Assembly (NCBI GenBank): GCA_012026935.1
Contig: VEPI01000036.1
Location: 44,047-108,046 of the forward strand
DNA length: 64,000 bases
DNA from: Melioribacter sp.
GTDB taxonomy: Bacteria > Bacteroidota > Ignavibacteria > Ignavibacteriales > Melioribacteraceae
Direction: 5' to 3'
The position numbers were made by a program, and so were the translations under genes. Positions within the stretch are counted from its first letter, which is position 1, and every line of letters starts with the position of its first letter. Positions 34,977-50,583 of this stretch are shown here, piece by piece. Below the pieces are notes generated by a model. It did not search any database and was not told the origin of the DNA. It saw only the letters and a list, made by a program, of their open reading frames with translations.

Positions 34977-37437
34977 TCTAATTATTTTATTAATAATTTC
35001 GTTAGCCCAAGTTGATGCACAGACCCAAAAGGTTAATTATAAAATTCTCGGCATTTCTGTCGTCGGTAATAAATCAGCTGATGCTGCAACTATTATTGCC
35101 AATACAGGATTAAAAATTGGTGATGAGATTAGTATTCCCGGTGACCAAACCAATAATGCAATTAAAAGATTATGGAATTTGGGAATATTTCAGGATGCAG
35201 AAATTATTATTGAAAAGAAAATTGATACCGGAATTTTCATCCAAATTAAAGTACAAGAATATCCACGCCTTGAAAAATTTGTTTTAAAAGGTAATGATGA
35301 GCTTAGCGAAGATAATATCAATAAAAAAATTACAATCGTCCGCGGTCAAACCTTAAAACCACAAGAAATTGTACGGTTGATAAATAAAATTAAAACTTTA
35401 TATGAAGATGACGGATATCTTAACGCAACAATTATTCCTCATAATTATAATTACTTTGAAGCTGACACTACTGAAAAAGAAATTACTGTGACCTGGCGGG
35501 ATGAAAAAGATCTCTCCAAGGAATTAAAAACAACTTATGAAGTTGATAAAGCTTCATCTATAAACTCCATAAACAGAATCAAAGAGCGTATACTTGTTTT
35601 GCTTGATATAAAAGAAGGCGATGAGATAACAATTCGTAATATTATTTTTAACGGAAACAATGCATTTGACGACGGAACTTTGCGTAGTGAATTTGATGAC
35701 ACAAAAGAATCTGCATGGTGGAAATTTTGGACCTCCCCAAAATTTAAACGTGATAAGTTTGAAAAAGACAAAGAATTACTAACAAAATTTTATAGAAAAA
35801 AAGGTTACCGAGATTTTATCGTTCTCCACGATAGTACCGTTTTTTCCGAGGACAAAAAACAAATCGATGTTATTGTTGATGTGTATGAAGGTGATCAATA
35901 CAAAGTACGTAATGTTATTTGGGAAGGTAATTCAGTTTATCCGAGCGAAGAATTAAATGCAAGATTGGATTTCAAAAAAGGTGATGTCTTTGATTACGAA
36001 AAATTTAATCAGAATTTACACTACAATGAGAAGCAAACCGATGTATCATCAATTTATCAAGATACGGGATATCTCGGCTTCCAACTCGATGCAAAAGAAG
36101 AAAAATGCGCTAAAGATTCAGTTGATATTAGAGTAAAAATAAATGAAGGGAACCGTTTTAAAATCGGTAAAGTTGATATAACAGGAAATGATAAAACAAA
36201 AGATAAAGTAATACGACGGGAGTTATTTACTATCCCGGGAAATTTCTTTAGCCGCGGATATATTTTAAGAAGCATCCAGCAGCTTTCAAATCTTCAATAC
36301 TTCAATGTGGAACAACTTTATAAAGGAGTGGACTACCGTCCTTCAAACGATAGTACTGTAAATATCATTTATAAAGTTGAAGAGAAATCAAGTGATTATT
36401 TAAATGCTTCAATTGGTTACAGCGGAGCTTTTGGATTCAGCGGTGCTGTTGGTTTTACTTTAACAAATTTTTCACTCGCTGAGCCATTCCAAATGGGTGG
36501 TGGACAAGTATTAAATTTTAATTGGCAATTTGGCGTTGGTAATTTTTACAGAACATTCTCTCTTGGTTTTACAGAGCCTTGGTTTATGGATACACCAACA
36601 TCTCTTGGTTTTGATCTTTTTGATACACGGCAAAGATATGTTTACGATCTGCAGCAATCAGGTATAACTTTTAGAGTTGGAAGAAGATTAACCTGGCCAG
36701 ATGATTTCTTTTATATTATGGGAACGATACGTTTTCAATATAACGATGTAATTGATGGAGCAGGTTATTACCCGACAGGATTAACTAGACAATATTCGCT
36801 TGGTACAACAATTTCAAGAACGGATATTGATAATCCTATCTTCCCCTCCAGAGGTTCAAAGTTTTCGTTAAGCGGCGAATTAACCGGTGGGCCATTTTTA
36901 CCGGGAAATGTTGATTATTTTAAGATTGATTTTAAATCAGAGTGGTATAAATCAATTTTTAATTCTAACAGATTTGTACTTTACACTTCGGCAGAACTCG
37001 GTTATATTGGGGAGTTAAAAGATAGAACTCCTATACAACCATTCGAATATTTTTATATGGGAGGCAGCGGATTAATAATTGCTACTACTTCTTTACGAGG
37101 TTATGAAGACCGTAGTTTGGGTTTGAGAGACCCCGTAACAAATAATGTTACAGGAAGTAGTGTAATGGCAAAATTTACTTCGGAATTTAGAGTAGCTTTG
37201 GCGTTAGAGCCGATTCCGATTTATTTACTTGCTTTTGCAGAAGCAGGTAATGTTTATTTGGATATGAAACATACTGACCTTTTTAATTTGAAACGTTCAG
37301 TAGGTGTGGGTGCAAGAATTTTATTGAATCCGATTGGATTAATCGGTTTCGATTACGGATATGGATTTGACAGAAAAAGTGTTGACGGAAATGATCCGCA
37401 ATGGATTTTTCATTTCCAATTTGGAAAAGGTTTTTAA
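34939..37437 (+). CDS. bamA: Outer-membrane protein assembly factor BamA
   Basis: 832 residues. Signal peptide about 1-28 (ILSLIILLIISLAQVDAQ), five POTRA domains about 35-440, and an Omp85 16-stranded barrel ending GNDPQWIFHFQFGKGF with the C-terminal aromatic residue. The loop-6 region GGSGLIIATTSLRGYEDRSLG carries the conserved VRGF/Y-like RGY motif. BamA inserts beta-barrel proteins into the outer membrane. It starts inside uppS and is followed by two Skp-like chaperone genes, the classical order. High confidence. Confidence 0.96.
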   Translation: MLKHTPRKQQILSLIILLIISLAQVDAQTQKVNYKILGISVVGNKSADAATIIANTGLKIGDEISIPGDQTNNAIKRLWNLGIFQDAEIIIEKKIDTGIFIQIKVQEYPRLEKFVLKGNDELSEDNINKKITIVRGQTLKPQEIVRLINKIKTLYEDDGYLNATIIPHNYNYFEADTTEKEITVTWRDEKDLSKELKTTYEVDKASSINSINRIKERILVLLDIKEGDEITIRNIIFNGNNAFDDGTLRSEFDDTKESAWWKFWTSPKFKRDKFEKDKELLTKFYRKKGYRDFIVLHDSTVFSEDKKQIDVIVDVYEGDQYKVRNVIWEGNSVYPSEELNARLDFKKGDVFDYEKFNQNLHYNEKQTDVSSIYQDTGYLGFQLDAKEEKCAKDSVDIRVKINEGNRFKIGKVDITGNDKTKDKVIRRELFTIPGNFFSRGYILRSIQQLSNLQYFNVEQLYKGVDYRPSNDSTVNIIYKVEEKSSDYLNASIGYSGAFGFSGAVGFTLTNFSLAEPFQMGGGQVLNFNWQFGVGNFYRTFSLGFTEPWFMDTPTSLGFDLFDTRQRYVYDLQQSGITFRVGRRLTWPDDFFYIMGTIRFQYNDVIDGAGYYPTGLTRQYSLGTTISRTDIDNPIFPSRGSKFSLSGELTGGPFLPGNVDYFKIDFKSEWYKSIFNSNRFVLYTSAELGYIGELKDRTPIQPFEYFYMGGSGLIIATTSLRGYEDRSLGLRDPVTNNVTGSSVMAKFTSEFRVALALEPIPIYLLAFAEAGNVYLDMKHTDLFNLKRSVGVGARILLNPIGLIGFDYGYGFDRKSVDGNDPQWIFHFQFGKGF

Positions 37438-37457
37438 AAACATTATTAGAGGTTAAA

Positions 37458-38000
37458 GTGAAAAAATCTATTTTATTTGTACTTATTTTATTTACTGTCT
37501 CTGCATTTGCACAGATACAACAAGCTCAAACAACTACTTTAAAACTTGGCTGGGTAGATTCACAGATTATACTAGCTCAGTTGCCGGAAGCTATAAAAGC
37601 AAAAGCTGACCTTGAAGGCATGGTATCTAAATGGAGAAAAGATCTTGACAGTATGCAGACCGATTATCAAAAATTTCTTGCAGATAATCAAAAACAAGCT
37701 GAGACTATGAAGAAAGAAGAACTTCAAAAGGTTCAACAGAAATTAGCGGAAAAAGAACAAAAATATACACAGTACAATCAAGCAAAATTTGCTCAGCCAA
37801 ACGGCGAACTCTATCAAAAACAAGAACAATTATTAGCCCCAGTTAAAGAAAAAATATACAAAGCGATTGACGAAATTTCTAAAGATATGGGAATGCAATT
37901 TGTTTTTGATAAAGCATTAGACGGAGTTCTTGTAAAAGCTGACCCTGAATTTGATATTACATATAAGGTTCTTGATTTTCTTAAAAGAGGTAAAAAATAA
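37458..38000 (+). CDS. skp: Periplasmic chaperone, Skp/OmpH family, first copy
   Basis: 180 residues from the GTG at 37458, with AGAGG 5 bases upstream and a clear signal peptide directly after (KKSILFVLILFTVSAFAQ). Mature part begins LKLGWVDSQIILAQLPEAIKA, followed by a charged helical hairpin (about 55-130) and a C-terminal LGMQFVFDKALDGVLV segment, as in Skp. It keeps unfolded outer-membrane proteins soluble on the way to BamA. An upstream in-frame ATG lies inside bamA and would bury the signal peptide, so I reject it. Confidence 0.93.
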   Translation: MKKSILFVLILFTVSAFAQIQQAQTTTLKLGWVDSQIILAQLPEAIKAKADLEGMVSKWRKDLDSMQTDYQKFLADNQKQAETMKKEELQKVQQKLAEKEQKYTQYNQAKFAQPNGELYQKQEQLLAPVKEKIYKAIDEISKDMGMQFVFDKALDGVLVKADPEFDITYKVLDFLKRGKK

Positions 38001-38016
38001 TTACCGGAAATAAATT

Positions 38017-38532
38017 ATGAAAAAGCTTGGATTATTTTTATTCGTAATTCTATCGGTTGTATCATCAGTTAAACTTTACAGTCAACCAAAGATTGGTTAT
38101 GTTGATAGCGATACAATTATGAAACAACTTCCTGAAGCTCAGGATGCACAGAAAAAACTTGATGCAATTATAAAAGATTGGCAGGAAGAACTTTCCAAGA
38201 TGGAAAGAGATTGGAAAACCAAGTATGATGATTACGATAAACGGAAACTTATTCTTAGCGATCAAAAGCGTGCTGAGATTGAAAAAGAATTAGTTACTCT
38301 GGAAAATCAAACTTCCAAGTATAGGCAGGATAAATTTGGAGTTAAAGGCGAACTCTTTCAGAAACAAGAAGAGTTGATGAAGCCGATTCAGAATAGAATT
38401 TTTACTGCTATTCAACAAGTTGCAAAAGAAAATGATTATGATTTTATTTTTGATAGAAGCGGCGATATCATCTTTCTCTATGCTAAAGAAGAATATGATG
38501 TTACAGCCATGGTGATTGAAAAACTTAAATGA
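38017..38532 (+). CDS. Periplasmic chaperone, Skp/OmpH family, second copy
   Basis: 171 residues, signal peptide about 1-22 ([20 protein letters not shown]), mature start [21 protein letters not shown], a charged coiled-coil middle (about 45-115), and a C-terminal [18 protein letters not shown]. Clearly paralogous to the preceding gene, 16 bases away. Skp works as a homotrimer in E. coli; two paralogues may form separate or mixed trimers. Duplicated OmpH genes are common in Bacteroidota. Confidence 0.93.
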
Positions 38533-38539
38533 GTTTTTT

Positions 38540-39598
38540 ATGAAGATAAAATTAAAAGAAGCCGCCGACTTAGTCGGCGGTGTCGTTATTGGCGATTCAC
38601 AAACTGAACTAACCGGAATAGCCAAAATTGAAGAAGCAAAAAAGGGTGATTTAACTTTTCTTTATTTATCAGCGTACGAAAAATTTTTAAATTCAACAGG
38701 GGCATCGGCTGTTCTTATCAGTCCTGAATTTAAAAAAACACGGACCGACATCAATTATATTGAAGTAAAAAATCCAAATGTTGCTCTTCAAAAAATTATT
38801 ATAACTTTCCTTCAGCCAAAAATTAATCTTAAGGGAATAGATAAGACCGCTTCAATTCATGATTCTGTAATAATTGGTAAAAATGTATCGGTTGGTAAAA
38901 ACGTTGTTATCGAGGCTGGTGCCGTTATCGGTGATAATTCGATTATTTATCACAATTCAGTATTAATGGAGAATGTAAAAGTCGGTTCTAATTGTTTGCT
39001 TTATCCTAATGTTTCTGTAAGAGAAAATTGTGTCATTGGGAATAACGTTATCATTCATTCAAATACAGTAATTGGATCTGATGGTTTCGGATATATTCCT
39101 GATGAAAAAGGTGTTTATAAAAAAGTACCGCAAATTGGAAATGTTGTTCTTGAAGATAATGTTGAACTCGGTTCTAATGTTTCGATAGATCGTGCTGCAT
39201 TAGGCTCTACAATAATTAAAAACGGAGTTAAGATTGATAATTTAGTTCAGATTGCTCACAACGTTTCCATTGGCGATAACACAGCAATAGCTTCTCAAAG
39301 TGGAATAGCCGGCAGTACAACAATTGGTAAAAATTGTATTCTTGCCGGCCAAGTAGGAATTGTTGGCCACATCGAAATTACAGATAAAGTAATTGTAGGC
39401 GCGCAATCGGGTGTATCAAAATCTATTACAAAGCCCGGCAAGTATCGCGGCTCACCTGCAGATGATATGGGTAAAATGCTGAAATTGGAAGCTCATCTAA
39501 GAAACGTTCCTGTTTATGCAGAAAAAATTAAAAAGTTAGAAGAAAAAATTGCATCTTTGGAAGAGAAAATTTCTCAATTAATTTCTAAAGGAACCTGA
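38540..39598 (+). CDS. lpxD: UDP-3-O-acylglucosamine N-acyltransferase (LpxD)
   Basis: 352 residues from the ATG at 38540; an earlier in-frame ATG lies inside the preceding gene. N-terminal uridine-binding domain about 1-100 ([29 protein letters not shown]), then about 100-320 left-handed beta-helix hexapeptide repeats with the catalytic-His region [14 protein letters not shown], and a C-terminal coiled coil ([23 protein letters not shown]). Third enzyme of lipid A synthesis. Its stop overlaps the next start by one base (TGATG). Confidence 0.96.
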
Positions 39599-41004
39599 TG
39601 CTGGAACTTCAACGAACAATCAAAAAACCAGTCTCTATTTCGGGAACAGGATTACACACCGGAACATCATGTACAATGACTTTTAAGCCCGCACCGGATA
39701 ACTCAGGTATTAAATTCATACGGATTGATCTTGGTGGTAAACCTGAAATACCCGCTAATGCTGATTTTGTCGTAGATATTTCGCGAGGTACTACTCTTGG
39801 CTTAGGTGATGCAAAAGTTTATACAGTTGAACACGTTTTAGCAGCTGTTGTAGGACTACAAATAGATAATCTTGTTATTGAATTGGATGGAATGGAACCA
39901 CCGATAGGTGATGGAAGTTCTCTCCCCTATGTAGAAAAATTGTTAGAGTCAGGATTTGTAACACAGGAAACTCCTAAAGATTATTTAGTAATAGACCAGA
40001 CGGTTGAATACCATAATGAGAAAGAGAAAGTTGATATAGTTGCTTTGCCATTAGATGGTTTTAGAATATCACTAATGGTGGATTATGAAAATCCTTCTCT
40101 CGGAAGTCAGCACTCAGGTTTATTCGACCTTGAAAAAGAATTTACTGGCGAGTTTGCACCCGCAAGAACATTTTGCTTTTTGAGCGAAGTTGAAATGCTA
40201 ATTGACCAGGGATTAATTAAAGGTGGAAATATTGATACTGCTGTTGTAATTATTGATCATGATATTGATGAAAAAGGTTTGTTGCGATTAAAAGACAAAT
40301 TGAATTTAGACCACGATTTGAAAGTATTCAATGGTTATTTAAATAATAACAAACTTCGATTTAAAAATGAACCTGCAAGACATAAAGTTCTAGATATGAT
40401 CGGTGACCTTGCTTTGATTGGTGTTCCTATAAAAGCGCAAGTACTTGCTGCTCGTCCCGGTCATAAAGCCAATGTTGAATTTGCAAAAAAGATTAGGCAA
40501 TTATACCATCAGAAAAAATTTGTTCGCAAGTATCTATTTGTTAAGAAAGAAGGGGTCGTTTTTGATATTAATGCAATACATAGAATTCTTCCCCATCGCT
40601 ATCCTTTCTTACTTGTTGATAAAATCATTGAACTTCAACTTGATAAAAAAGTAGTGGGAATTAAAAACGTTACCATAAACGAACAATTTTTTAACGGACA
40701 TTTTCCTGGTCAACCGGTTATGCCCGGTGTTTTAATTATTGAAGCTATGGCTCAAGTAAGCGGTATATTATTATTGAATTCATATTTGGATCCTGAAAAT
40801 CATCTTGTTTATTTCATGAGTATTAACAATGCTAAATTTAGAAAACCGGTTATGCCCGGAGATCAACTTGTGTTAGAAGCAGAAATGATTGCAGTGAAGA
40901 GCGGCAAATATTTTTCGATTAAAGGTTCGGCATACGTAGATAATAACCCCGTTGCAGAAGCTGAATTCATGGCCGCGATGGTACCAAAACAAAATAACAC
41001 GTGA
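39598..41004 (+). CDS. lpxC/fabZ: Bifunctional UDP-3-O-acyl-GlcNAc deacetylase / 3-hydroxyacyl-ACP dehydratase (LpxC-FabZ)
   Basis: 468 residues. About 1-310 is LpxC with zinc ligands His79 (VEHVLAAVVG), His262 and Asp266 (RHKVLDMIGD). About 320-468 is FabZ with catalytic His368 (NGHFPGQPVMPG) and Glu382 (IEAMAQ). LpxC performs the committed step of lipid A synthesis; FabZ dehydrates hydroxyacyl-ACP, which competes for the same acyl donor. The fusion is a known trait of Bacteroidota and relatives and supports the taxonomic call. Both active sites look intact. Confidence 0.96.
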   Translation: MLELQRTIKKPVSISGTGLHTGTSCTMTFKPAPDNSGIKFIRIDLGGKPEIPANADFVVDISRGTTLGLGDAKVYTVEHVLAAVVGLQIDNLVIELDGMEPPIGDGSSLPYVEKLLESGFVTQETPKDYLVIDQTVEYHNEKEKVDIVALPLDGFRISLMVDYENPSLGSQHSGLFDLEKEFTGEFAPARTFCFLSEVEMLIDQGLIKGGNIDTAVVIIDHDIDEKGLLRLKDKLNLDHDLKVFNGYLNNNKLRFKNEPARHKVLDMIGDLALIGVPIKAQVLAARPGHKANVEFAKKIRQLYHQKKFVRKYLFVKKEGVVFDINAIHRILPHRYPFLLVDKIIELQLDKKVVGIKNVTINEQFFNGHFPGQPVMPGVLIIEAMAQVSGILLLNSYLDPENHLVYFMSINNAKFRKPVMPGDQLVLEAEMIAVKSGKYFSIKGSAYVDNNPVAEAEFMAAMVPKQNNT

Positions 41005-41020
41005 AATTAAAATTATAAAA

Positions 41021-41797
41021 ATGTCAAATATTCATCCGTCCGCTATTGTAAGTCCCAATGCAAAATTAGGTGAGAATGTAATTGTAGAACCATTCGCATG
41101 GATTCATGATAATGTTGAAATTGGAAATGACTGCTGGATTGGTCCTCACGTAATAATTTATGATGGTGCAAGAATTGGTAACGAAGTAAAAATTTATCAA
41201 AGCGCATCTGTCTCCCATCAACCGCAAGATAAAAAATATAACAACGAAGAAACTTTCTGCTTCATTGGCGATAAAAGCCGTATACACGAGTTCGCAACTA
41301 TTCACCGCGGTACAAGTGGAACAGGTAAAACTACTCTTGGAAAAAGTGTTTTGATAATGGCATATGCTCACGTAGCTCATGATTGTGTTATTGGAGATAA
41401 CTGTATTCTTGCAAATGCAGTTCAGCTCGGCGGCTTTACTCAAGTTGATGACTGGGCAATTATTGGTGGCTCGGTTCCTGTCCATCAATTTGTAAAAATT
41501 GGAAAACATGTAATTGTTGGCGGCGGAACAAAAATCGGGAAGGATATTCCACCTTTTATTATGGCTGCCGGTGAACCGATTAAATATTACGGATTGAACT
41601 TGGTCGGATTAAAGAGGAGAGGTTTTACTTCAGACCAATTGGAAAAAATAAAAATGATTTATAAAATAATTTACGATTCACATCTAAATTTTTCACAAGC
41701 TAAAGAAAAATTAATGAATGAAATGCCTGAAGATATTTTTGCCAAAGAGGTAATTAACTTCATGAATCTGAGTACAAGAGGATTAATTGGTAAATGA
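41021..41797 (+). CDS. lpxA: Acyl-ACP--UDP-GlcNAc O-acyltransferase (LpxA), copy 1
   Basis: 258 residues from the ATG at 41021; a longer frame starting inside lpxC-fabZ is rejected. Left-handed beta-helix about 1-190 and a helical C-terminus (GLNLVGLKRRGFTSDQLEKIK, ending NLSTRGLIGK). By alignment with E. coli LpxA, His117 and His120 (AHVAHDC) correspond to His122 and catalytic His125, and His155 (VHQF) to His160, but Phe139 (GGFTQ) stands where His144 is expected. Performs the first step of lipid A synthesis if active. It is followed 31 bases later by a same-length paralogue. Confidence 0.9.
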   Translation: MSNIHPSAIVSPNAKLGENVIVEPFAWIHDNVEIGNDCWIGPHVIIYDGARIGNEVKIYQSASVSHQPQDKKYNNEETFCFIGDKSRIHEFATIHRGTSGTGKTTLGKSVLIMAYAHVAHDCVIGDNCILANAVQLGGFTQVDDWAIIGGSVPVHQFVKIGKHVIVGGGTKIGKDIPPFIMAAGEPIKYYGLNLVGLKRRGFTSDQLEKIKMIYKIIYDSHLNFSQAKEKLMNEMPEDIFAKEVINFMNLSTRGLIGK

Positions 41798-41828
41798 TTT
41801 TTGATAAGCAGATAATAATTGCATTGAT

Positions 41829-42605
41829 ATGGTAAACATACATTCCACAGCAATTGTAAGTTCGAAAGCTCATCTTGGTGAAAATGTAACAATCTCCCCC
41901 TTTGCTATAATTCATGATGAAGTTGAAATCGGCGACAATACTTTTATTGGTCCCAAAACCGTTGTTTATGATTATACCACGATCGGTAATAACGTAAAAA
42001 TATTTCAGAATGCCTCAATAGGTCACACCCCGCAAGATCTAAAATTCAAGGGCGAGATTACACACTGTTACATAGGTGATAATTCCATCATTCACGAGTT
42101 TGTAACTATTCACAGAGGAACAGCTGCTTCTCTTAAAACTACAATTGGTAAAAATGTTTACATTATGGATTATAGCCATGTTGCACATGATTGTGTTGTT
42201 GAAGACAATTGTATTATTGCGAACTTAACTCAAATTGCAGGACATGTTCATATTTATCAAAATGCAGTTATTGGTGGTAACGTAAAAATTTTACAGTTCA
42301 TGCGTATAGGCAAGTTTTGTATGATTCAAGGTAGCAGAACTATCAATAAGGATATACCTCCATACATTCTGGCCGGAACAGAAGAAGTTCAGTATGGCGG
42401 CTTAAATTCAATTGGCCTGCGTAGAAATGGATTTTCTTCGGATCAGATTCAACACATAAAAAAAATATATAATTATATTTTTGAATCTAAACTTAATATC
42501 TCTCAAGCGAAAGAAAAGATATCAGCAGAATTTTCTAACGATCCATTTGCAATAGAAATTCTTGCATTTATTAATGAGAGTAAAATCGGAATTATAAGTA
42601 AATGA
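41829..42605 (+). CDS. LpxA-like acyltransferase, copy 2
   Basis: 258 residues, collinear with the preceding gene without gaps by eye. Beta-helix about 1-190, C-terminal GLNSIGLRRNGFSSDQIQHIKKI. His117, His120 (SHVAHDC) and His139 (AGHVH) are present, matching E. coli His122/125/144, but Leu155 (KILQF) replaces His160. So each copy lacks a different conserved histidine. It may be an active isoform, a partner in a mixed trimer, or a divergent acyltransferase for another sugar nucleotide. It overlaps the next gene by 4 bases. Confidence 0.85.
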   Translation: MVNIHSTAIVSSKAHLGENVTISPFAIIHDEVEIGDNTFIGPKTVVYDYTTIGNNVKIFQNASIGHTPQDLKFKGEITHCYIGDNSIIHEFVTIHRGTAASLKTTIGKNVYIMDYSHVAHDCVVEDNCIIANLTQIAGHVHIYQNAVIGGNVKILQFMRIGKFCMIQGSRTINKDIPPYILAGTEEVQYGGLNSIGLRRNGFSSDQIQHIKKIYNYIFESKLNISQAKEKISAEFSNDPFAIEILAFINESKIGIISK

Positions 42606-43351
42606 TTTGGCATTTTATAGATTCATATGAGAACACAGGCAAGTACAATATGGATTTTGATATTGAACTTGCTAAGAATTGTAAACCAACCGATGCATTT
42701 TTTAGAATTTACAGATGGAGTCCTTACTGCATTTCGTTAGGGGCAAACCAAAGTTTTAGCGACATCAACCAGGAAAAAACCAAAGCCGATGGAATTGATA
42801 TTGTAAAACGTCCGACGGGCGGACGTGCAATACTTCATGCAGAAGAATTAACCTATTCTGTCGTTCTTCCTTTGAATTATGAATTCTCTCCGCGCGAAAT
42901 ATATTTTAGAATCTCCAACGCACTTATGCGCGGATTGGAAATTTACAATCCAGTTCTTGCAAAATCACAACTTGAAGATTACCAGCCAAACTTTCCAAAA
43001 CTTTTGGAGGAACCATCCGGAGTTTTATGCTTTGCAAGTACGGCAAGAAACGAAGTAAAATTTAACGGTAAGAAACTGATTGGAAGTGCTCAGAGAAAGT
43101 TAAATAACGTAATTCTTCAACATGGTTCAATATTGTGCGGGCCATTTCATAAAAAACTTGTTAATTACATTAACTCTGATGCAATTACTAAAAATGAATT
43201 ATCGTCTGAATTGAATAATAAAACTACAGAGCTCGGATCCATTCTAAATGAGGAAATTGATTACCAGAAATTGAAAACCTGTTTATTGGTTGGATTTGAA
43301 TTGGAATGGCAGATCAAGTTCGAGCCGATTGTAGAGGCAGTTTCAACATGA
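42602..43351 (+). CDS. Lipoate-protein ligase A / octanoyltransferase LipM-like protein
   Basis: 249 residues with the BPL/LPL fold: RWSPYCISLGANQSFSD, the RPTGGRAILHAEELTYSVVLP substrate loop (about 70-90), and FNGKKLIGSAQRKLNNVILQHGSIL (about 154-178). Cys143 in VLCFAST sits where LipM has its catalytic cysteine, so octanoyl transfer from ACP is more likely than ATP-dependent lipoate ligation. It attaches the lipoyl precursor to lipoyl domains or GcvH. Located at the end of the lpx block with a four-base overlap, a functional link through acyl-ACP use only. Confidence 0.82.
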   Translation: MIWHFIDSYENTGKYNMDFDIELAKNCKPTDAFFRIYRWSPYCISLGANQSFSDINQEKTKADGIDIVKRPTGGRAILHAEELTYSVVLPLNYEFSPREIYFRISNALMRGLEIYNPVLAKSQLEDYQPNFPKLLEEPSGVLCFASTARNEVKFNGKKLIGSAQRKLNNVILQHGSILCGPFHKKLVNYINSDAITKNELSSELNNKTTELGSILNEEIDYQKLKTCLLVGFELEWQIKFEPIVEAVST

Positions 43352-43503
43352 TCCATAGAGCACAATATTTTAAGCCCTACATTGCAGATAAACCATAGAG
43401 TCATACAACCCGGAAAAATTTATAAATCATTTCCATCCCTTCATTCTTAATGTTAAATTTCCCGATAGAAATCGCAGCTATTCACTAACAGATACTTTCT
43501 GAA

Positions 43504-44604
43504 ATGAAAAAAATATTGTTTCTATTTTTCATATTGTTTTTAATAAATATTTATGCTCAAGATCAATCCGACCTTGAATTTTTTCTTAGCGGCGCTCAAG
43601 TTATGGATATTACCAGCGATGGTTCTAATCTCTGGTTTGCAACAAATGGAAATGGTATTTTCAAATATATACCTAAAACAAATGCCTGGATGCAGTATTC
43701 AACTTCATTTGGAAATTTACAGCATGATTTCTTTTATTGCATCGCCGCTAATGAAGATTATGTTTGGGCCGGCTCAACCGATGGTCTTTTTATTTTAGAT
43801 AAGAAGAATAACTCATGGACAAAAAGAAAATTTGGCCTCGGCGGGCAGTTAGCTAATTGGATTCGTTCATTGGCTTATGATAAATATGAAAAAGTTCTCT
43901 GGATCGGACGATTTAAATATCTTACCAAGTTCGATCTGAAAGAAAAAAGATATAGTGATTACGATCTAACTGTTAAAGGAAACGAAAAGACTAACACAAT
44001 TAAATCTATACAAGTAGATGGCGACTCTCTTGTATGGTTTGGAACAGAAGCCGGTTTACACAAGTATGATAAATCAAAGGACCTTAACAATAAAAATTCA
44101 TTAACTTTTTATGACACTAAATACAATTACTTTGAAGGAGAAGGCGAGCAAGTTTCCATTACATCAATTTTATTCGAAAGAAAATTTGTCTGGATCGGAC
44201 TCGATGAATTTGTTACACCGGAACGCCCTGAATTCAATCTTGGCGGTTTGTTCCGTTTCAATAGAAAAAATGATTGGCTCCGATTTGACGACTCAAAAGG
44301 TTTGCCCGCAAATGGTATTTATGATTTAGAACGAACCGGTAAGTATATTTGGGTGTCGTTATATCAGTTTGGTAAAAACACAAAGGAAACTTTTGGAAGA
44401 GGAATTGTTTTGATAGACAGAATGACAAATCAAATAATTCCAATTCGCGATGATCGGATTCCGCAAACAGTTTACTCTATCTTTTTCGATGGAACAAAAT
44501 TGTGGCTCGGAACAGAATCCGGACTGATTAAAGTTAATTTCTTCAATAAGCTTGCACAGTGGGTAGGAACTCGTAGCAGTGCTAAAAGCGGAGTGAAAAA
44601 ATGA
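43504..44604 (+). CDS. Secreted beta-propeller protein (two-component-regulator propeller repeats)
   Basis: 366 residues, signal peptide MKKILFLFFILFLINIYAQ. About seven blades are recognisable by the repeating LWFATNGNGIFKY, VWAGSTDGLFIL, LWIGRFKYLTKF, VWFGTEAGLHKY, VWIGLDEFV, IWVSLYQFG and LWLGTESGLIKV motifs. This propeller type is best known as the periplasmic sensor of hybrid two-component systems, but here there is no kinase domain or membrane anchor. Function unknown. It overlaps hldE1 by 4 bases and so heads the following transcript. Confidence 0.82.
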   Translation: MKKILFLFFILFLINIYAQDQSDLEFFLSGAQVMDITSDGSNLWFATNGNGIFKYIPKTNAWMQYSTSFGNLQHDFFYCIAANEDYVWAGSTDGLFILDKKNNSWTKRKFGLGGQLANWIRSLAYDKYEKVLWIGRFKYLTKFDLKEKRYSDYDLTVKGNEKTNTIKSIQVDGDSLVWFGTEAGLHKYDKSKDLNNKNSLTFYDTKYNYFEGEGEQVSITSILFERKFVWIGLDEFVTPERPEFNLGGLFRFNRKNDWLRFDDSKGLPANGIYDLERTGKYIWVSLYQFGKNTKETFGRGIVLIDRMTNQIIPIRDDRIPQTVYSIFFDGTKLWLGTESGLIKVNFFNKLAQWVGTRSSAKSGVKK

Positions 44605-45596
44605 TGAACGTCTCATTCAAAAAATTGAATTCACTTAAAAACAATTTTTTCGGAAAACGTGTTGCCATCATCGGCGATCTTATGCTTGATTGTTATTTCT
44701 GGGGAGGTGTTTCAAGAGTTTCACCGGAAGCACCTGTTCCTGTTGTGGAAGTTGATGAAGAATTTTTCCGCTTCGGTGGTGCAATGAATGTAGCATATAA
44801 TATTTTAAAACTCGGCGGTACTCCCTACCCTATCGGTGTAATTGGAAATGACAATGACGGAAAAATTATTCGTAAACTGATGAAGGAAACAGGAATAACC
44901 GATAAAGGAATTGTAATTGATCCGAAGCGGCCAACTACTGCAAAGACAAGAGTTATTGCGGATAAACAACACATTGTAAGAATAGATAAAGAGAAAACAG
45001 CAGCAATATTACCGACAATAGAAAGGAAAATATTAGGATTACTTAAAAAAGAACTAAATAAACTTGATGCAATTATTCTTCAAGATTATAATAAAGGTGT
45101 GCTTACCGGAAATTTAATAAAACAAATCATTAAGCTTGCAGACAGCACAAATATTATTGTAACCGTTGATCCTAAATTCATGAATTTCTTTTCATATAAA
45201 AATGTAACTGTTTTCAAGCCGAACAGAAAAGAAACAGAAGACGCTTTTGGAATCAGAATTAAAACAGAAGAAGATATTACTAAAGCCGGGTTTAGACTGC
45301 TTGAACAGCTCAATTGCAAAAACGTACTACTTACATTGGGTGAAAAAGGAATTGCACTTTTCGAAAAAGGAAAACCCGAGAGAAGAGTTCCTACCATTGC
45401 AAGAAAAGTTTCTGATGTATCAGGTGCAGGCGATACTGTCATCTCTACGTTAACAATGGCGCTTAGTGCAGGTGCAGAAATTTTTGATGCCGCATATTTA
45501 GCTAACTATGCCGGCGGTTTGGTTTGCCAGGAAGTTGGAATCGTTCCGATAGAATTAAATACTTTGTTTAAAGCAGTGTCTAAAGAGTTAAAATGA
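44601..45596 (+). CDS. rfaE1: D-glycero-beta-D-manno-heptose-7-phosphate kinase (HldE N-terminal type)
   Basis: 331-residue PfkB/ribokinase-family protein with GDLMLDCYFWGGVSRVSPEAPVPVVEVDEEFFRFGGAMNVAYNI (N-terminal signature, pieces), NRKETEDAFGI, and the ATP/catalytic site VSDVSGAGDTVISTL. Phosphorylates heptose-7-phosphate to the 1,7-bisphosphate for LPS inner-core heptose. In E. coli this domain is fused to the adenylyltransferase; here the next gene carries that half separately, overlapping by four bases. Confidence 0.92.
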   Translation: MMNVSFKKLNSLKNNFFGKRVAIIGDLMLDCYFWGGVSRVSPEAPVPVVEVDEEFFRFGGAMNVAYNILKLGGTPYPIGVIGNDNDGKIIRKLMKETGITDKGIVIDPKRPTTAKTRVIADKQHIVRIDKEKTAAILPTIERKILGLLKKELNKLDAIILQDYNKGVLTGNLIKQIIKLADSTNIIVTVDPKFMNFFSYKNVTVFKPNRKETEDAFGIRIKTEEDITKAGFRLLEQLNCKNVLLTLGEKGIALFEKGKPERRVPTIARKVSDVSGAGDTVISTLTMALSAGAEIFDAAYLANYAGGLVCQEVGIVPIELNTLFKAVSKELK

Positions 45597-46072
45597 GTAA
45601 CATAAAAAACATTAACGAGCTTGCAGAAATCAGAAATGAACTGAAACTGCAAAACAAAAAGGTTGTATTTACAAACGGGGTGTTTGATATTTTACACGCC
45701 GGACATGTAGATTATTTAACCAAGGCCAAAGCCAAAGGCGATATCTTAATTGTGGCAGTTAATTCCGATTCATCCGTAAAAAAAATTAAAGGAGAACTTC
45801 GGCCAATTGTACCGCAGGGTGAACGGGCTTTTATTATTTCTTCACTCAAACCGGTAGATTATGTTGTAATTTTTAATGAAGAAACTCCATATGAAATAAT
45901 TAAAAAAATTATTCCCGATGTGTTAGTTAAAGGCGGTGATTGGCCTGTAGAAAATATTGTAGGAAGAGATATTGTTGAAGCAAATGGCGGAAAAGTTGAA
46001 ACAATAGAATTTATTAATGACCGTTCTACCACCAACATAATTAAAACAGTTCTTGAAAGATTCAAGAAGTAA
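45593..46072 (+). CDS. rfaE2: D-glycero-beta-D-manno-heptose-1-phosphate adenylyltransferase (HldE C-terminal type)
   Basis: 159-residue nucleotidyltransferase. Signature FTNGVFDILHAGHVDYL with the HxGH motif at His35-His38, NSDSSVKKIKG, and the ISSLKPVDYVV and DRSTTNIIKTVL segments. Transfers AMP to heptose-1-phosphate, giving ADP-heptose for LPS. Coupled to the kinase gene upstream; its TAA overlaps the next ATG by one base. Confidence 0.93.
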   Translation: MSNIKNINELAEIRNELKLQNKKVVFTNGVFDILHAGHVDYLTKAKAKGDILIVAVNSDSSVKKIKGELRPIVPQGERAFIISSLKPVDYVVIFNEETPYEIIKKIIPDVLVKGGDWPVENIVGRDIVEANGGKVETIEFINDRSTTNIIKTVLERFKK

Positions 46073-49000
46073 TGGCTGACCAAGAAAAAAATATTACTGA
46101 TGATGTTAAACAGACAAATACTAAAGTTAAAAGAAGTCTGTTTCGTAAAATTGTAAATGTTTTCATCGGCATTTTTTTAGGATTAATATTACTCTCTTTA
46201 ATTCTTCTCGGTTATACACAAACAAAAACATTCAGAGAAACACTCCGCGAGAAAATTATTTCATTAGTTAATGAAGAAATCAACGGTAAATTAAATATTG
46301 AAAAATTAAACGGTACTATTTTTACATCTCTCTTTCTGCAAAATACATCTGTGCTGGTTGGCAATGATACTCTCTTCTACGCAAGAAATGTTGAACTTAA
46401 GATTAGTCCTTTACAGATATTATTAAAAAAGATTTACGTTAGAAAAATTCTTCTGGAAGACGTTAAGATTGCAATGCTTCAAGATTCCACCGGAGCTTGG
46501 AATTTTTCCAAATTAATAAAACCAAAACCGGAGGACACCACAAAATCATCATTCCCGTTTTTTGTTCAGGTAAATGATTTACAACTGCATAATGTTCAAT
46601 TCATCCGTCAGTCTTATACTAATTATAAATCGCAGCAAAGTTATCCGACAATGAATATGAATGATCTTCGAATAAATAATTTACACTTTAACGCTCAAGC
46701 CTTTGTTGATGTTGATAACTCCAATTATTTACTAATCTTAAAAGGACTGTCCTTCAAACCAAATCTTACTCGTTTTAATTTGAAAAATATTTCGGGCGAA
46801 TTTGCAATAGCTAAAAATTTTGCTAGTATTAATAATCTCTATTTTTTAACAGACAGCAGTGAATTAAAGTTAAATGCCCGGATTGATAGTCTAAATTTAT
46901 TTGGAAAGGTTCAGTTAGAAGATTTTAAAAATTATCCGGTTACAATTAATGCAAATGCAAAATCCTTCAACTTTGATGATCTCTCATCATTTATAGGAAG
47001 TACTGAAATATTAAAGGGTAATCCCTCGATGGAATTAAAAGCCCGCGGAAAGTTTGGCAATTTCAAAATTGAAAAACTTGCAGTTGATTACCGCAATACA
47101 CACTTCAGGATTGAAGGTAAAGTTTTACATCTCAATTCACCCCGCGATTTATTTATTCAGGCTAAGGTTTATGAAACTGATTTTAGTTACGAAGATGTTA
47201 ATGCTCTGCTTCCAACTTTGAAATTACCAGAGTACGCTTTGCTTCATATGACAGGGATTAATATTGAATTTGACGGGCAGCCAACAAATTTCAAAACAAA
47301 GTTTTTAGGAAATATTGAGAATGGTAAAGTTTCATTTGATGCTTCTATAAACGTTAGTTCTAATCCAATTACTTATAATATCAACTTTGAAACGAATGAA
47401 TTAGATCTTGCACCTGTCATAAAAACGAATACTTCTTTAACCTCCAAAGGAAGTTTAATCGGGAAAGGGGTCTCGCCTGCTGATATCAATGCTGATTTTA
47501 AATTCAATGCCAACAATTCATCATTTAATGGTCATCCGCTCGACAAATTTACTGTAAATGTTAATGCTGCAAATAGGATTATGGATTTAAGTGTTGATGG
47601 ACTTAGTAACAATGCGAGCGCCCTCGTAAAAGGTAACATTTCATTTGATAAGGATACAATACCTTCATACAATTTAGTTGGTCAGTTAAAGAAATTAAAT
47701 CTTGCTACTTTCTTAAAAGATCAGAAGTATGACAGCAATTTGAATTTTTATTTTTCTGCCGACGGTAAAAATTTTGATCCTGATAAACTTACCGGTTCAT
47801 TTTCATTTGGCGTAGATTCTTCGCGCTTCCGAGGTAAAAAAATTGATTACTCGAATATTCAATGTGTTTTCAAAAAAGATCTGCTTAACCGCGAAATATT
47901 ACTTACTTCAGACTTTGTTGATTTCAAAATTGACGGTGACTTTTCACTTAAAAAAGCTATCTCTCTTATTTCATACGAAACAACAACTATTAGCGGCATA
48001 ATTGCAAAAAAAGTCAGCGAATTAAATCCCATTTCTATTGTCAGTAATCAACAAAGTAATATAGAGATTGATACTGCTGTACCAGATATAGTTAATGAGA
48101 ATCTAAAATTTAATTATGATTTTAAGTTTAAGGATTTCGAATTAATAGCAATGCTTCTTGGAAATGACCAGCTTGATATTTCCGGTAACGGCAAAGGGAT
48201 TATTAAAAACGAAAATGGAAATTTCTCAGTCTCGAACGAAATGAAATTGGATTATTTAGTAATGATGCAAGATAAAACTACAATTTATCTTTCAGATATT
48301 GATTCCGATATTAATTTCACGCGTGATAACAATTCACTCTCTTTTGATAAATTATTCGGGACTGCCTCATTGACCGGAAAACGATTCTATTCCGGCAGTA
48401 ATATAAAATCAATTTCTGCTGATATAACATTTAATCAGAGTAAATTATTTTTCAGCGGATCTGCAAATATTGAAGATATGATTTTTGCCGAAGCCGACGG
48501 CATGATTAACATGACTCCGAATGAACAATTACTTTCTCTTAATAAGTTATCTGCTACTTATGACGGATTAGAGTGGTCGAACAAAGACACTGTAAAAATT
48601 CTTTTTAATCCCGACTTCTTCAAAATACTTCAATTCACTGTTCAGCATGATACATCAACAATTAATCTTGACGGAATAATTGAACGATCGGGAAATCAAA
48701 ATTTGAACATTACAGCAAGCCGGATTTCAGGTAATCTATTGGAAAGATACTTATTGGGTTATAAAGATAACTTGCTAATTGCAAACGGATCCTTGAATGG
48801 AAGGATTGAAGGTAGGTTAGAAAATCCGGTAATGAAAATTTTATTTGATCTTAAAGATTTACAAATCTCTTCTTCAAAGCTTGGAAGTATAAAAGGATCA
48901 TTAAATTATTCAGATAAAAAACTAACGACTGACTTTGAATTTCTTGACTTGAATGCAAATGAACAAAAACCTTTGCTTACACTTAAAGGTAGCTTGCCAA

Positions 49001-50583
49001 TAGACTTAAGCTTAGCAAATGTTAGTAAACGATTTGTTGATAACGAACCCTTTAGTATTAAACTAAAGTCCGATAATTTTGATTTAAGTTCACTTGGCAG
49101 AATAATTCCAGGAATTACGGACCAGAGAGGAATTCTTTTTGCTGATGTTGATCTCAGCGGATCATTTAAGGATCCGATTTTTAAGGGGTTCATTAATTTA
49201 ACCGATGGACGTTTTAAATCACTTTACAATAATTTAGATTACAGCTGTTCTGCAAAAATTCATTTCGAGAATCAAGAAATGAAACTGGATGATATGACTT
49301 TATCTAATGCAGGCGGCTCAAAATATTCCGGTACCATTTACGGAGCGGGCGGAATTTCATTCAACGGATTCAGTCTGAAAGATATGGATCTTCATTTCAA
49401 TGGTAATCTTGCAGTGCTTGGACAACAATCGCAGATGGTTAGCCCTAATTTCTATGGTGATCTAATAATTGGGAGTGATGGCGATTGGATTTTGAGCAAA
49501 CCAGGCAATCGAATTCTGTTCAAAGGAAATTTCTTAATGGAGAATACCGATTTGGTTTATACAACTCAACAGGCTAACGGTGAATTACAAAATAAGAATT
49601 TCAATTTTATTTTTATTCAGGACTCTACAAAAATTGATCGTGAGTTAGCACTTTTTCAGAAAGTTTTATTAAAAGAGAAAGCGCTACAGGAACAATCGTT
49701 TCTGAAGACAGAGAAACCTCTCAACTTTGATTACGAGATCGGAATAAGTGCAGATAATAGTGCAAAACTTGTCTTTATACTTTCTCAGGCTGCTAATCAA
49801 AAACTATTTGTTGAAATGCGCGGCGATTTGAAATACTCAAGTTATGGCGGAGAGTCAAGAGTGCAAGGTGCGTTCGAACTTTTACAAGGTTCAAAATTAG
49901 AATTCTTTAAAACATTTGAAGCAACCGGATTTATCCGTTTTGAAAACGACGTTACAAATCCATATTTAGATATTGTTGCAACTTATACCAGCGATTATAT
50001 AGACCCTCGAGGCGATGGTAAACCTCAAGATGTTGCCATTAAAATTAAAATTAAAAGCCCCCTTTCCGAATTAGGAAAAAGTTTAGCCGGGAATACGGAG
50101 AGTATTGGTGTTTATGTTGGAACTAGAAATATTCAAAACAACATTAGAGATGCCCGTTATGATTATGCCGATGCCTTTTCATTTATTCTTATCGGTAAAT
50201 TTAAGGATGATCTAACAGCTCAGGATAAAGCACAAGTAGCAGGACAAACAAATGCAATTGGAAGTACTGCAACTTCATTTTTAGGATCTGTTTTAACAAA
50301 TTTCTTAAACTCACAGGTTGGAGATCTTGTAAACAATATCCAGATCAATCAATCCGGCGAGTACACAAAATTTTCACTTTCAGGAAGGATACAAAATCTC
50401 CGGTATAGTTTTGGCGGTACAACGGAAGTCTTTCAAAATATAAATAAAGCAAACATTAAAGTTGAATATCTTTTTAATCCTAAATTTTTAATTAGGCTTG
50501 AAAGAAAAGATCCCATTGTTACTTCATTTGGCTTGGATGAAAAAATAAATGAAATGGCTCTTAAATATAAATTCGAATTTTAA
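46072..50583 (+). CDS. tamB: TamB/AsmA-like translocation and assembly protein (DUF490 C-terminus)
   Basis: 1503 residues. N-terminal signal anchor about 25-50 (FRKIVNVFIGIFLGLILLSLILLGY), a very long stretch of repeating beta-strand sequence (taco-fold/AsmA-like) and the TamB C-terminal domain about 1130-1503 (RVQGAFELLQGSKLEFFKTFEATGFIRFENDVTNPYLDIVATY, in pieces, and the KVEYLFNPKFLIRLERKDP end). TamB-type proteins bridge the periplasm and move phospholipids to, or help build, the outer membrane. No TamA gene is adjacent, but bamA and skp lie 10 kb upstream. It ends exactly where the next start begins. Confidence 0.88.
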   Translation: MADQEKNITDDVKQTNTKVKRSLFRKIVNVFIGIFLGLILLSLILLGYTQTKTFRETLREKIISLVNEEINGKLNIEKLNGTIFTSLFLQNTSVLVGNDTLFYARNVELKISPLQILLKKIYVRKILLEDVKIAMLQDSTGAWNFSKLIKPKPEDTTKSSFPFFVQVNDLQLHNVQFIRQSYTNYKSQQSYPTMNMNDLRINNLHFNAQAFVDVDNSNYLLILKGLSFKPNLTRFNLKNISGEFAIAKNFASINNLYFLTDSSELKLNARIDSLNLFGKVQLEDFKNYPVTINANAKSFNFDDLSSFIGSTEILKGNPSMELKARGKFGNFKIEKLAVDYRNTHFRIEGKVLHLNSPRDLFIQAKVYETDFSYEDVNALLPTLKLPEYALLHMTGINIEFDGQPTNFKTKFLGNIENGKVSFDASINVSSNPITYNINFETNELDLAPVIKTNTSLTSKGSLIGKGVSPADINADFKFNANNSSFNGHPLDKFTVNVNAANRIMDLSVDGLSNNASALVKGNISFDKDTIPSYNLVGQLKKLNLATFLKDQKYDSNLNFYFSADGKNFDPDKLTGSFSFGVDSSRFRGKKIDYSNIQCVFKKDLLNREILLTSDFVDFKIDGDFSLKKAISLISYETTTISGIIAKKVSELNPISIVSNQQSNIEIDTAVPDIVNENLKFNYDFKFKDFELIAMLLGNDQLDISGNGKGIIKNENGNFSVSNEMKLDYLVMMQDKTTIYLSDIDSDINFTRDNNSLSFDKLFGTASLTGKRFYSGSNIKSISADITFNQSKLFFSGSANIEDMIFAEADGMINMTPNEQLLSLNKLSATYDGLEWSNKDTVKILFNPDFFKILQFTVQHDTSTINLDGIIERSGNQNLNITASRISGNLLERYLLGYKDNLLIANGSLNGRIEGRLENPVMKILFDLKDLQISSSKLGSIKGSLNYSDKKLTTDFEFLDLNANEQKPLLTLKGSLPIDLSLANVSKRFVDNEPFSIKLKSDNFDLSSLGRIIPGITDQRGILFADVDLSGSFKDPIFKGFINLTDGRFKSLYNNLDYSCSAKIHFENQEMKLDDMTLSNAGGSKYSGTIYGAGGISFNGFSLKDMDLHFNGNLAVLGQQSQMVSPNFYGDLIIGSDGDWILSKPGNRILFKGNFLMENTDLVYTTQQANGELQNKNFNFIFIQDSTKIDRELALFQKVLLKEKALQEQSFLKTEKPLNFDYEIGISADNSAKLVFILSQAANQKLFVEMRGDLKYSSYGGESRVQGAFELLQGSKLEFFKTFEATGFIRFENDVTNPYLDIVATYTSDYIDPRGDGKPQDVAIKIKIKSPLSELGKSLAGNTESIGVYVGTRNIQNNIRDARYDYADAFSFILIGKFKDDLTAQDKAQVAGQTNAIGSTATSFLGSVLTNFLNSQVGDLVNNIQINQSGEYTKFSLSGRIQNLRYSFGGTTEVFQNINKANIKVEYLFNPKFLIRLERKDPIVTSFGLDEKINEMALKYKFEF

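Follow-up and report, generated by a model that had tools for sequence, protein, structure and literature searches.

Adjacent lpxA genes in Melioribacter altered on different faces of the active site: a candidate heteromeric LpxA

Active-site halves of LpxA and described LpxA pairs

LpxA starts lipid A synthesis, is an antibiotic target, and is a textbook homotrimer, built from three identical subunits. Genomes with two LpxA proteins have nonetheless been described. In Capnocytophaga canimorsus, the LpxA/LpxA′ pair has been explained, by inference, by two sugar substrates and a resulting hybrid GlcN3N-GlcN lipid A backbone (PMC3342949). For the LpxA pair of Segatella copri, AlphaFold3 favoured homotrimers, and the two proteins have been interpreted as a source of acyl-chain diversity (PMC12643348). 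Under neither of these models would one copy be expected to lose its UDP site.

The LpxA active site is formed by residues from two neighbouring subunits, which we number here according to the E. coli K-12 protein (NC_000913). In the substrate complex of the Pseudomonas aeruginosa enzyme, UDP is bound by one monomer and GlcNAc by its neighbour, with the equivalents of D74, L75, K76, H125, H144, H160 and Q161 on the GlcNAc side and those of N198, E200, R204 and R205 on the UDP side, to which the tabulated contacts add L116, M118, I134, I152 and M170 (PMC7072397). The product complex of E. coli LpxA supports this assignment of the half-sites, since N198 and R205 come from one subunit and Q73, L75, K76, H99, H122, H125, D126, G143, H144 and Q161 from the other; the sugar is contacted by H144 at its 6-OH, by K76 at the ring oxygen and by L75 at the acetyl group (PMC6286764). 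The least certain assignment is that of H160, which depends chiefly on the structure from P. aeruginosa, because a paper on a bound peptide places H160 and Q161 on different chains (PMC6408518).

The lpxA pair of the window and its operon

The window, a stretch of 64,000 nucleotides of Melioribacter DNA from a host genome of ~3.2 Mb that is 99.95% complete, carries two lpxA genes in tandem on the forward strand, copy 1 at 41021..41797 and copy 2 at 41829..42605. Each is an open reading frame of 258 aa that matches the LpxA profile and aligns to E. coli LpxA. As an earlier note on this DNA had recognised, the two proteins are paralogues that align without gaps; their pairwise identity is 55%, and with 310.5 bits for copy 1 and 296.1 bits for copy 2 both exceed the curated cut-off (231.05 bits) of the LpxA equivalog model TIGR01852. 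The catalytic dyad His125-Asp126 and the oxyanion Gly143 are present in both. The nearest named record for copy 2 is a 97% match in a Melioribacter metagenome-assembled genome. No third LpxA was found in the window genome, where the only weaker matches are LpxD and one small hexapeptide protein, and lpxD, lpxC, lpxB and lpxK are encoded as well.

The pair belongs to an operon, all on the forward strand, with lpxD (38516..39598) and an lpxC-fabZ fusion (39598..41004), the latter lying immediately 5′ of copy 1. A lipoate-ligase-like gene (42602..43351, forward strand) overlaps the 3′ end of copy 2, and in most of the relatives examined this gene is the downstream neighbour of lpxA. Between bamA and lpxD lie two adjacent genes (37401-38000 and 38017-38532) that are called Skp/OmpH-like here from their position and appearance, an arrangement also present in relatives.

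Alignment to E. coli LpxA bears out the histidine changes reported in the earlier note. Copy 1 keeps H122, H125 and H160 and has phenylalanine at the His144 position (TTT, 41435..41437, forward strand), and copy 2 keeps H122, H125 and H144 and has leucine at the His160 position (TTA, 42291..42293, forward strand). The proposal that these two losses complement each other across the subunit interface does not hold, however, as both residues belong to the GlcNAc half-site of the same subunit (PMC7072397). Complementation of His144 by His160 is therefore rejected, H144 and Q161 also appearing together in Fig. 3 of PMC6286764, and one such loss per copy could not be repaired by mixing. Both positions, moreover, vary in single-copy LpxAs: phenylalanine occurs at 144 in G044 and G061 and leucine in G036, and proline occurs at 160 in G131 and G132. 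Likewise, the LpxA of Bacteroides fragilis, which has been solved with UDP-GlcNAc, has glutamate at 144 (PMC7072397). Either change alone is therefore no evidence of lost activity and, because half-site positions vary in accepted LpxAs, the membership of both copies in the LpxA family stands. Two genomes that each have a second LpxA (G239 and G283, loci L172 and L175) carry valine at the His160 position together with an acidic residue at 191, as in copy 2 of the window, and this likeness suggests that positions 160 and 191 change together.

Changes beyond the histidines are L75K in copy 1 and, in copy 2, R205N (AAT, 42426..42428, forward strand), at the uracil-binding position, and L116Y (TAC, 42159..42161, forward strand), at a UDP-face position. 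When the substitutions are sorted by face, copy 1 is seen to have a near-consensus UDP/acyl face, including N198, R204 and R205, and an altered GlcNAc pocket (lysine at Leu75, phenylalanine at His144) in which the catalytic H125, D126 and G143 are retained. Copy 2 retains the GlcNAc pocket (D74, K76, H125, H144 and Q161) save for the leucine at His160, and is altered on its UDP face, with tyrosine at Leu116, valine at Ile152 and asparagine at Arg205. Off-pattern changes are I170 on the UDP side of copy 1, against K75 and F144 on its GlcNAc side, and L160 on the GlcNAc side of copy 2, against Y116, V152 and N205 on its UDP side. R205N, R205H and R205K also occur in some single-copy LpxAs. A single-copy LpxA with Asn205 from a metagenome assembly (L057:6001-6774) has an in-frame stop, possibly a sequencing error.

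Half-site residues and history of eight adjacent pairs

LpxA proteins were surveyed in 160 genomes of the order Ignavibacteriales, eight of which contain adjacent lpxA pairs: set A comprises those of the window genome, G004, G032 and G033, and set B those of G094, G095, G097 and G100. Every pair genome gave two LpxA matches, some of these genomes being incomplete assemblies, and the same copy type always comes first. In all eight pairs, the upstream copy (copy 1) has lost GlcNAc-side residues and kept L116, R204 and R205. The losses are H144F in set A, joined by D74H in two pairs, and D74V or D74I in set B, joined by K76N or K76G in two. The downstream copy (copy 2) has in all eight pairs exchanged R205 for N, Y, H or S and L116 for Y, F, V or I, and has kept D74, K76 and H144. 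Set B copy 2 proteins additionally have R204K and acyl-channel changes (N137S in three, G155D or G155S in four); in all, R204 and most of the UDP/acyl face are lost from copy 2 in four of the pairs. Within the order, D74 is invariant in single copies and changes only in tandem copy 1, and R204K is found only in tandem copy 2. The copy 1 proteins of the Ignavibacteriaceae pairs have lost D74 and have no F144. Residues kept in all pairs are H122, H125, D126, G143 and Q161 in copy 1, and H125 and Q161 in copy 2.

The same split between the copies emerged from a scan that took no account of ligand contacts and used the 60 alignment columns with at least 93% conservation among 132 single-copy LpxAs from the order. 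On the GlcNAc-side score every copy 1 falls below all 132 single copies, although copy 1 of the window does so only very narrowly (−9.28, the single-copy minimum being −9.25); on the UDP-side score every copy 2 falls below all 132. The opposite-side scores of both copies are in or near the normal single-copy range. Of the distinct states that no single copy shows, copy 1 has six on the GlcNAc side and one on the UDP side, and copy 2 has four and 22, respectively (Fisher p 0.0012, with states treated as independent and contact lists assembled after a first look). When the contrast between faces was computed by set from states that are rare (<5%) in single copies, with residue sets partly chosen after the pattern had been seen, it was significant for set B (p = 0.0013) and not for set A, the window's own lineage (p = 1.0). 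With residue sets chosen after a first look, reciprocal change with neither copy canonical is found in 8/8 pairs and in 0/23 other two-LpxA genomes of the phylum, most of which combine one near-canonical copy with one altered copy. A sample of 395 genomes from the phylum yielded no further LpxA of the copy 2 type.

Comparison of the window genome (G000) with G004 gave dN/dS values of 0.031 (copy 1) and 0.026 (copy 2), similar to or below those of neighbouring genes, which indicates equal purifying selection on both copies; copy 2 evolves faster overall. In the LpxA tree, each set of each copy forms a clade, the copy 2 proteins of sets A and B join (96/92), and the two copies share one branching order in set A and almost do so in set B, as in co-divergence. 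Topology tests of one against two duplications all gave p-AU values of about 0.4. The eight pairs may thus descend from one or two duplications, and represent at most a few independent events.

Other members of the window's genus have a single, distant lpxA. In one genome, G007 (L219), the genes flanking the locus are 83-96% identical to those at 37401-50583 of the window (skp and lpxD to hldE 86-96%, tamB 83%), and the same slot holds one lpxA that is 52% identical to copy 1. Within genus g34, the pair of G094, G095 and G097 is replaced by a single copy in G045 and G096. The pair therefore appears to have been imported, replacing the resident lpxA in place and very locally.

Readings of the pair and comparison with known systems

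We regard a heterotrimer with one composite active site as the most likely explanation of these pairs, and would place it somewhat above an even chance. The two genes would encode the two subunits of one heteromeric LpxA. As LpxA sites lie between neighbours, one subunit presenting the GlcNAc/catalytic face and the next the UDP/acyl-channel face, copy 2 would supply the former and copy 1 the latter. Any mixed trimer, whether 2:1 or 1:2, would then contain exactly one near-canonical interface, which would make UDP-3-O-acyl-GlcNAc, and the other two interfaces would be degenerate and free to decay. A single composite site per mixed trimer would account for the lack of a canonical copy, for decay on opposite faces and for the retention of both genes. 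In G033, the copy 2 GlcNAc face and the copy 1 UDP face do not depart from the consensus of single copies at the scored positions, and in the window the same two faces deviate from consensus only by L160 and I170. The mixed trimer suggested in the earlier note thus survives on a different footing, that of the GlcNAc face against the UDP face, and its histidine argument falls.

Hetero-assembly, one active site per trimer and inactivity of the homotrimers are all three things that we infer from comparative evidence. That case is strong for the Ignavibacteriaceae pairs and weaker for the window's own pair, whose two most telling changes, F144 and N205, can each be found alone in single-copy LpxAs. 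The fuller proposal, in which the heterotrimer would be obligate, with the sugar/catalytic and nucleotide/acyl-channel faces split between the copies and one site per trimer, and would have spread between lineages as a two-gene cassette that takes the operon slot of the ordinary lpxA, seems to us evenly poised between right and wrong. Counting against a heterotrimer, the catalytic face of copy 1 would be idle and its H122, H125, D126, G143 and Q161 free to decay, yet they are kept, perhaps because folding depends on them or because this face retains some activity. The non-significant contrast in set A, the small number of independent events, the faster evolution of copy 2 and the AlphaFold3 homotrimers of the S. 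copri pair also count against it, and a search of open-access papers for LpxA heterotrimers returned only that modelling study. AlphaFold2 single-chain models built from ten sequences had LpxAs as their top matches but were poor (mean pLDDT about 75, TM about 0.3 to LpxA structures), and no weight is placed on them.

An unlikely alternative, raised in the earlier note as acylation of a different UDP-sugar by one copy, is that the genes encode two homotrimers, with copy 1 acting on a UDP-sugar altered near C4/C6 or C3 and copy 2 on UDP-GlcNAc. Such a substrate would suit copy 1 taken alone, whose changes cluster at sugar-binding residues (H144, K76, L75) and which retains all catalytic residues, and there is a precedent in the lpxA and lpxA′ genes of the C. 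canimorsus lpxC/lpxD operon (PMC3342949). The window genome also contains sugar-aminotransferase genes, one of which neighbours genes for a hexapeptide acetyltransferase and a MocA-type dehydrogenase; none of its DegT and MocA-family genes is assignable to GnnA or GnnB, which supply UDP-GlcNAc3N. Copy 2 would still need a UDP site, and the two-sugar reading does not account for its loss: R205 and L116 are missing from copy 2 in all pairs, so that in place of the UDP site expected in both copies of a C. canimorsus-type pair we find R205N and L116Y in the window and R204K in set B. Other two-LpxA genomes, moreover, usually keep a near-canonical copy, whereas here neither copy is. The enzyme known for UDP-GlcNAc3N is the LpxA of Leptospira. 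Position 76 is glycine in that protein (PMC7072397 Table 1), but lysine in both copies of the window.

It is also improbable, and distinctly so, that a homotrimer of copy 1 is the working LpxA, with Phe144 tolerated and copy 2 a facultative accessory or chain-length-modulating subunit that requires no composite site. This arrangement fits the window's pair, given F144 in single-copy G044 and G061, E144 in B. fragilis, the near-consensus UDP face of copy 1 and the faster divergence of copy 2. It fits poorly with the Ignavibacteriaceae copy 1 proteins, which have lost the D74 that is invariant in the order's single copies and do not have F144, with the retention of D74, K76, H144, H125 and Q161 everywhere in copy 2, unexpected in a non-catalytic subunit, and with equally low dN/dS for both copies. 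Neutral decay of redundant duplicates with no special function is highly improbable: although some single-copy LpxAs differ at positions 144, 160 and 205, dN/dS is 0.03 for both copies, several genera have kept the pair together with its face-specific pattern, and no LpxA besides it was found in the window genome.

The heterotrimer predicts that His125 would matter only in copy 2, and Arg204 and Asn198 only in copy 1. If correct, it would show an essential homo-oligomeric enzyme turning into an obligate hetero-oligomer, and would provide natural variants that separate the roles of the two LpxA faces.

Two LpxA genes, dispersed or in tandem, are also present in families f8, f15, f40, f58 and f65, which differ from the present pairs in that one copy is usually near-canonical and its partner has changes on a single face or on both, with no reciprocity. 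In f8 (L183, L184, L185, L186, L188, L189, L190), a dispersed second LpxA beside a near-canonical copy carries NSxS-like residues where the E. coli protein has QDLK (positions 73-76), and probably uses a different acceptor sugar. In f58 and f65 (L236, L237, L238, L239), the second LpxA has changes on the GlcNAc face as well as on the UDP face, and in five genomes of genus g212 (L231-L235) the second LpxA has Glu144, Phe137 and Asn152 beside a canonical copy. The S. copri LpxAs, from the same phylum and about 45% identical, likewise number two, but as described their genes lie apart by locus tag, unlike those of the window (PMC12643348). The two lpxA genes of C. canimorsus share an operon with lpxC and lpxD (PMC3342949), as here, but going by its description that pair differs from the present one, in which copy 2 is without part of the UDP site. 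With the homotrimeric LpxAs of E. coli (1LXA/2JF3/2QIA), P. aeruginosa (5DEM) and B. fragilis (4R36/4R37), both copies share family, similar length, hexapeptide repeats followed by a C-terminal LpxA domain, His125-Asp126 and Gly143. Unlike those enzymes, the Melioribacter locus has two genes, each without conserved ligand residues on a different intersubunit face.
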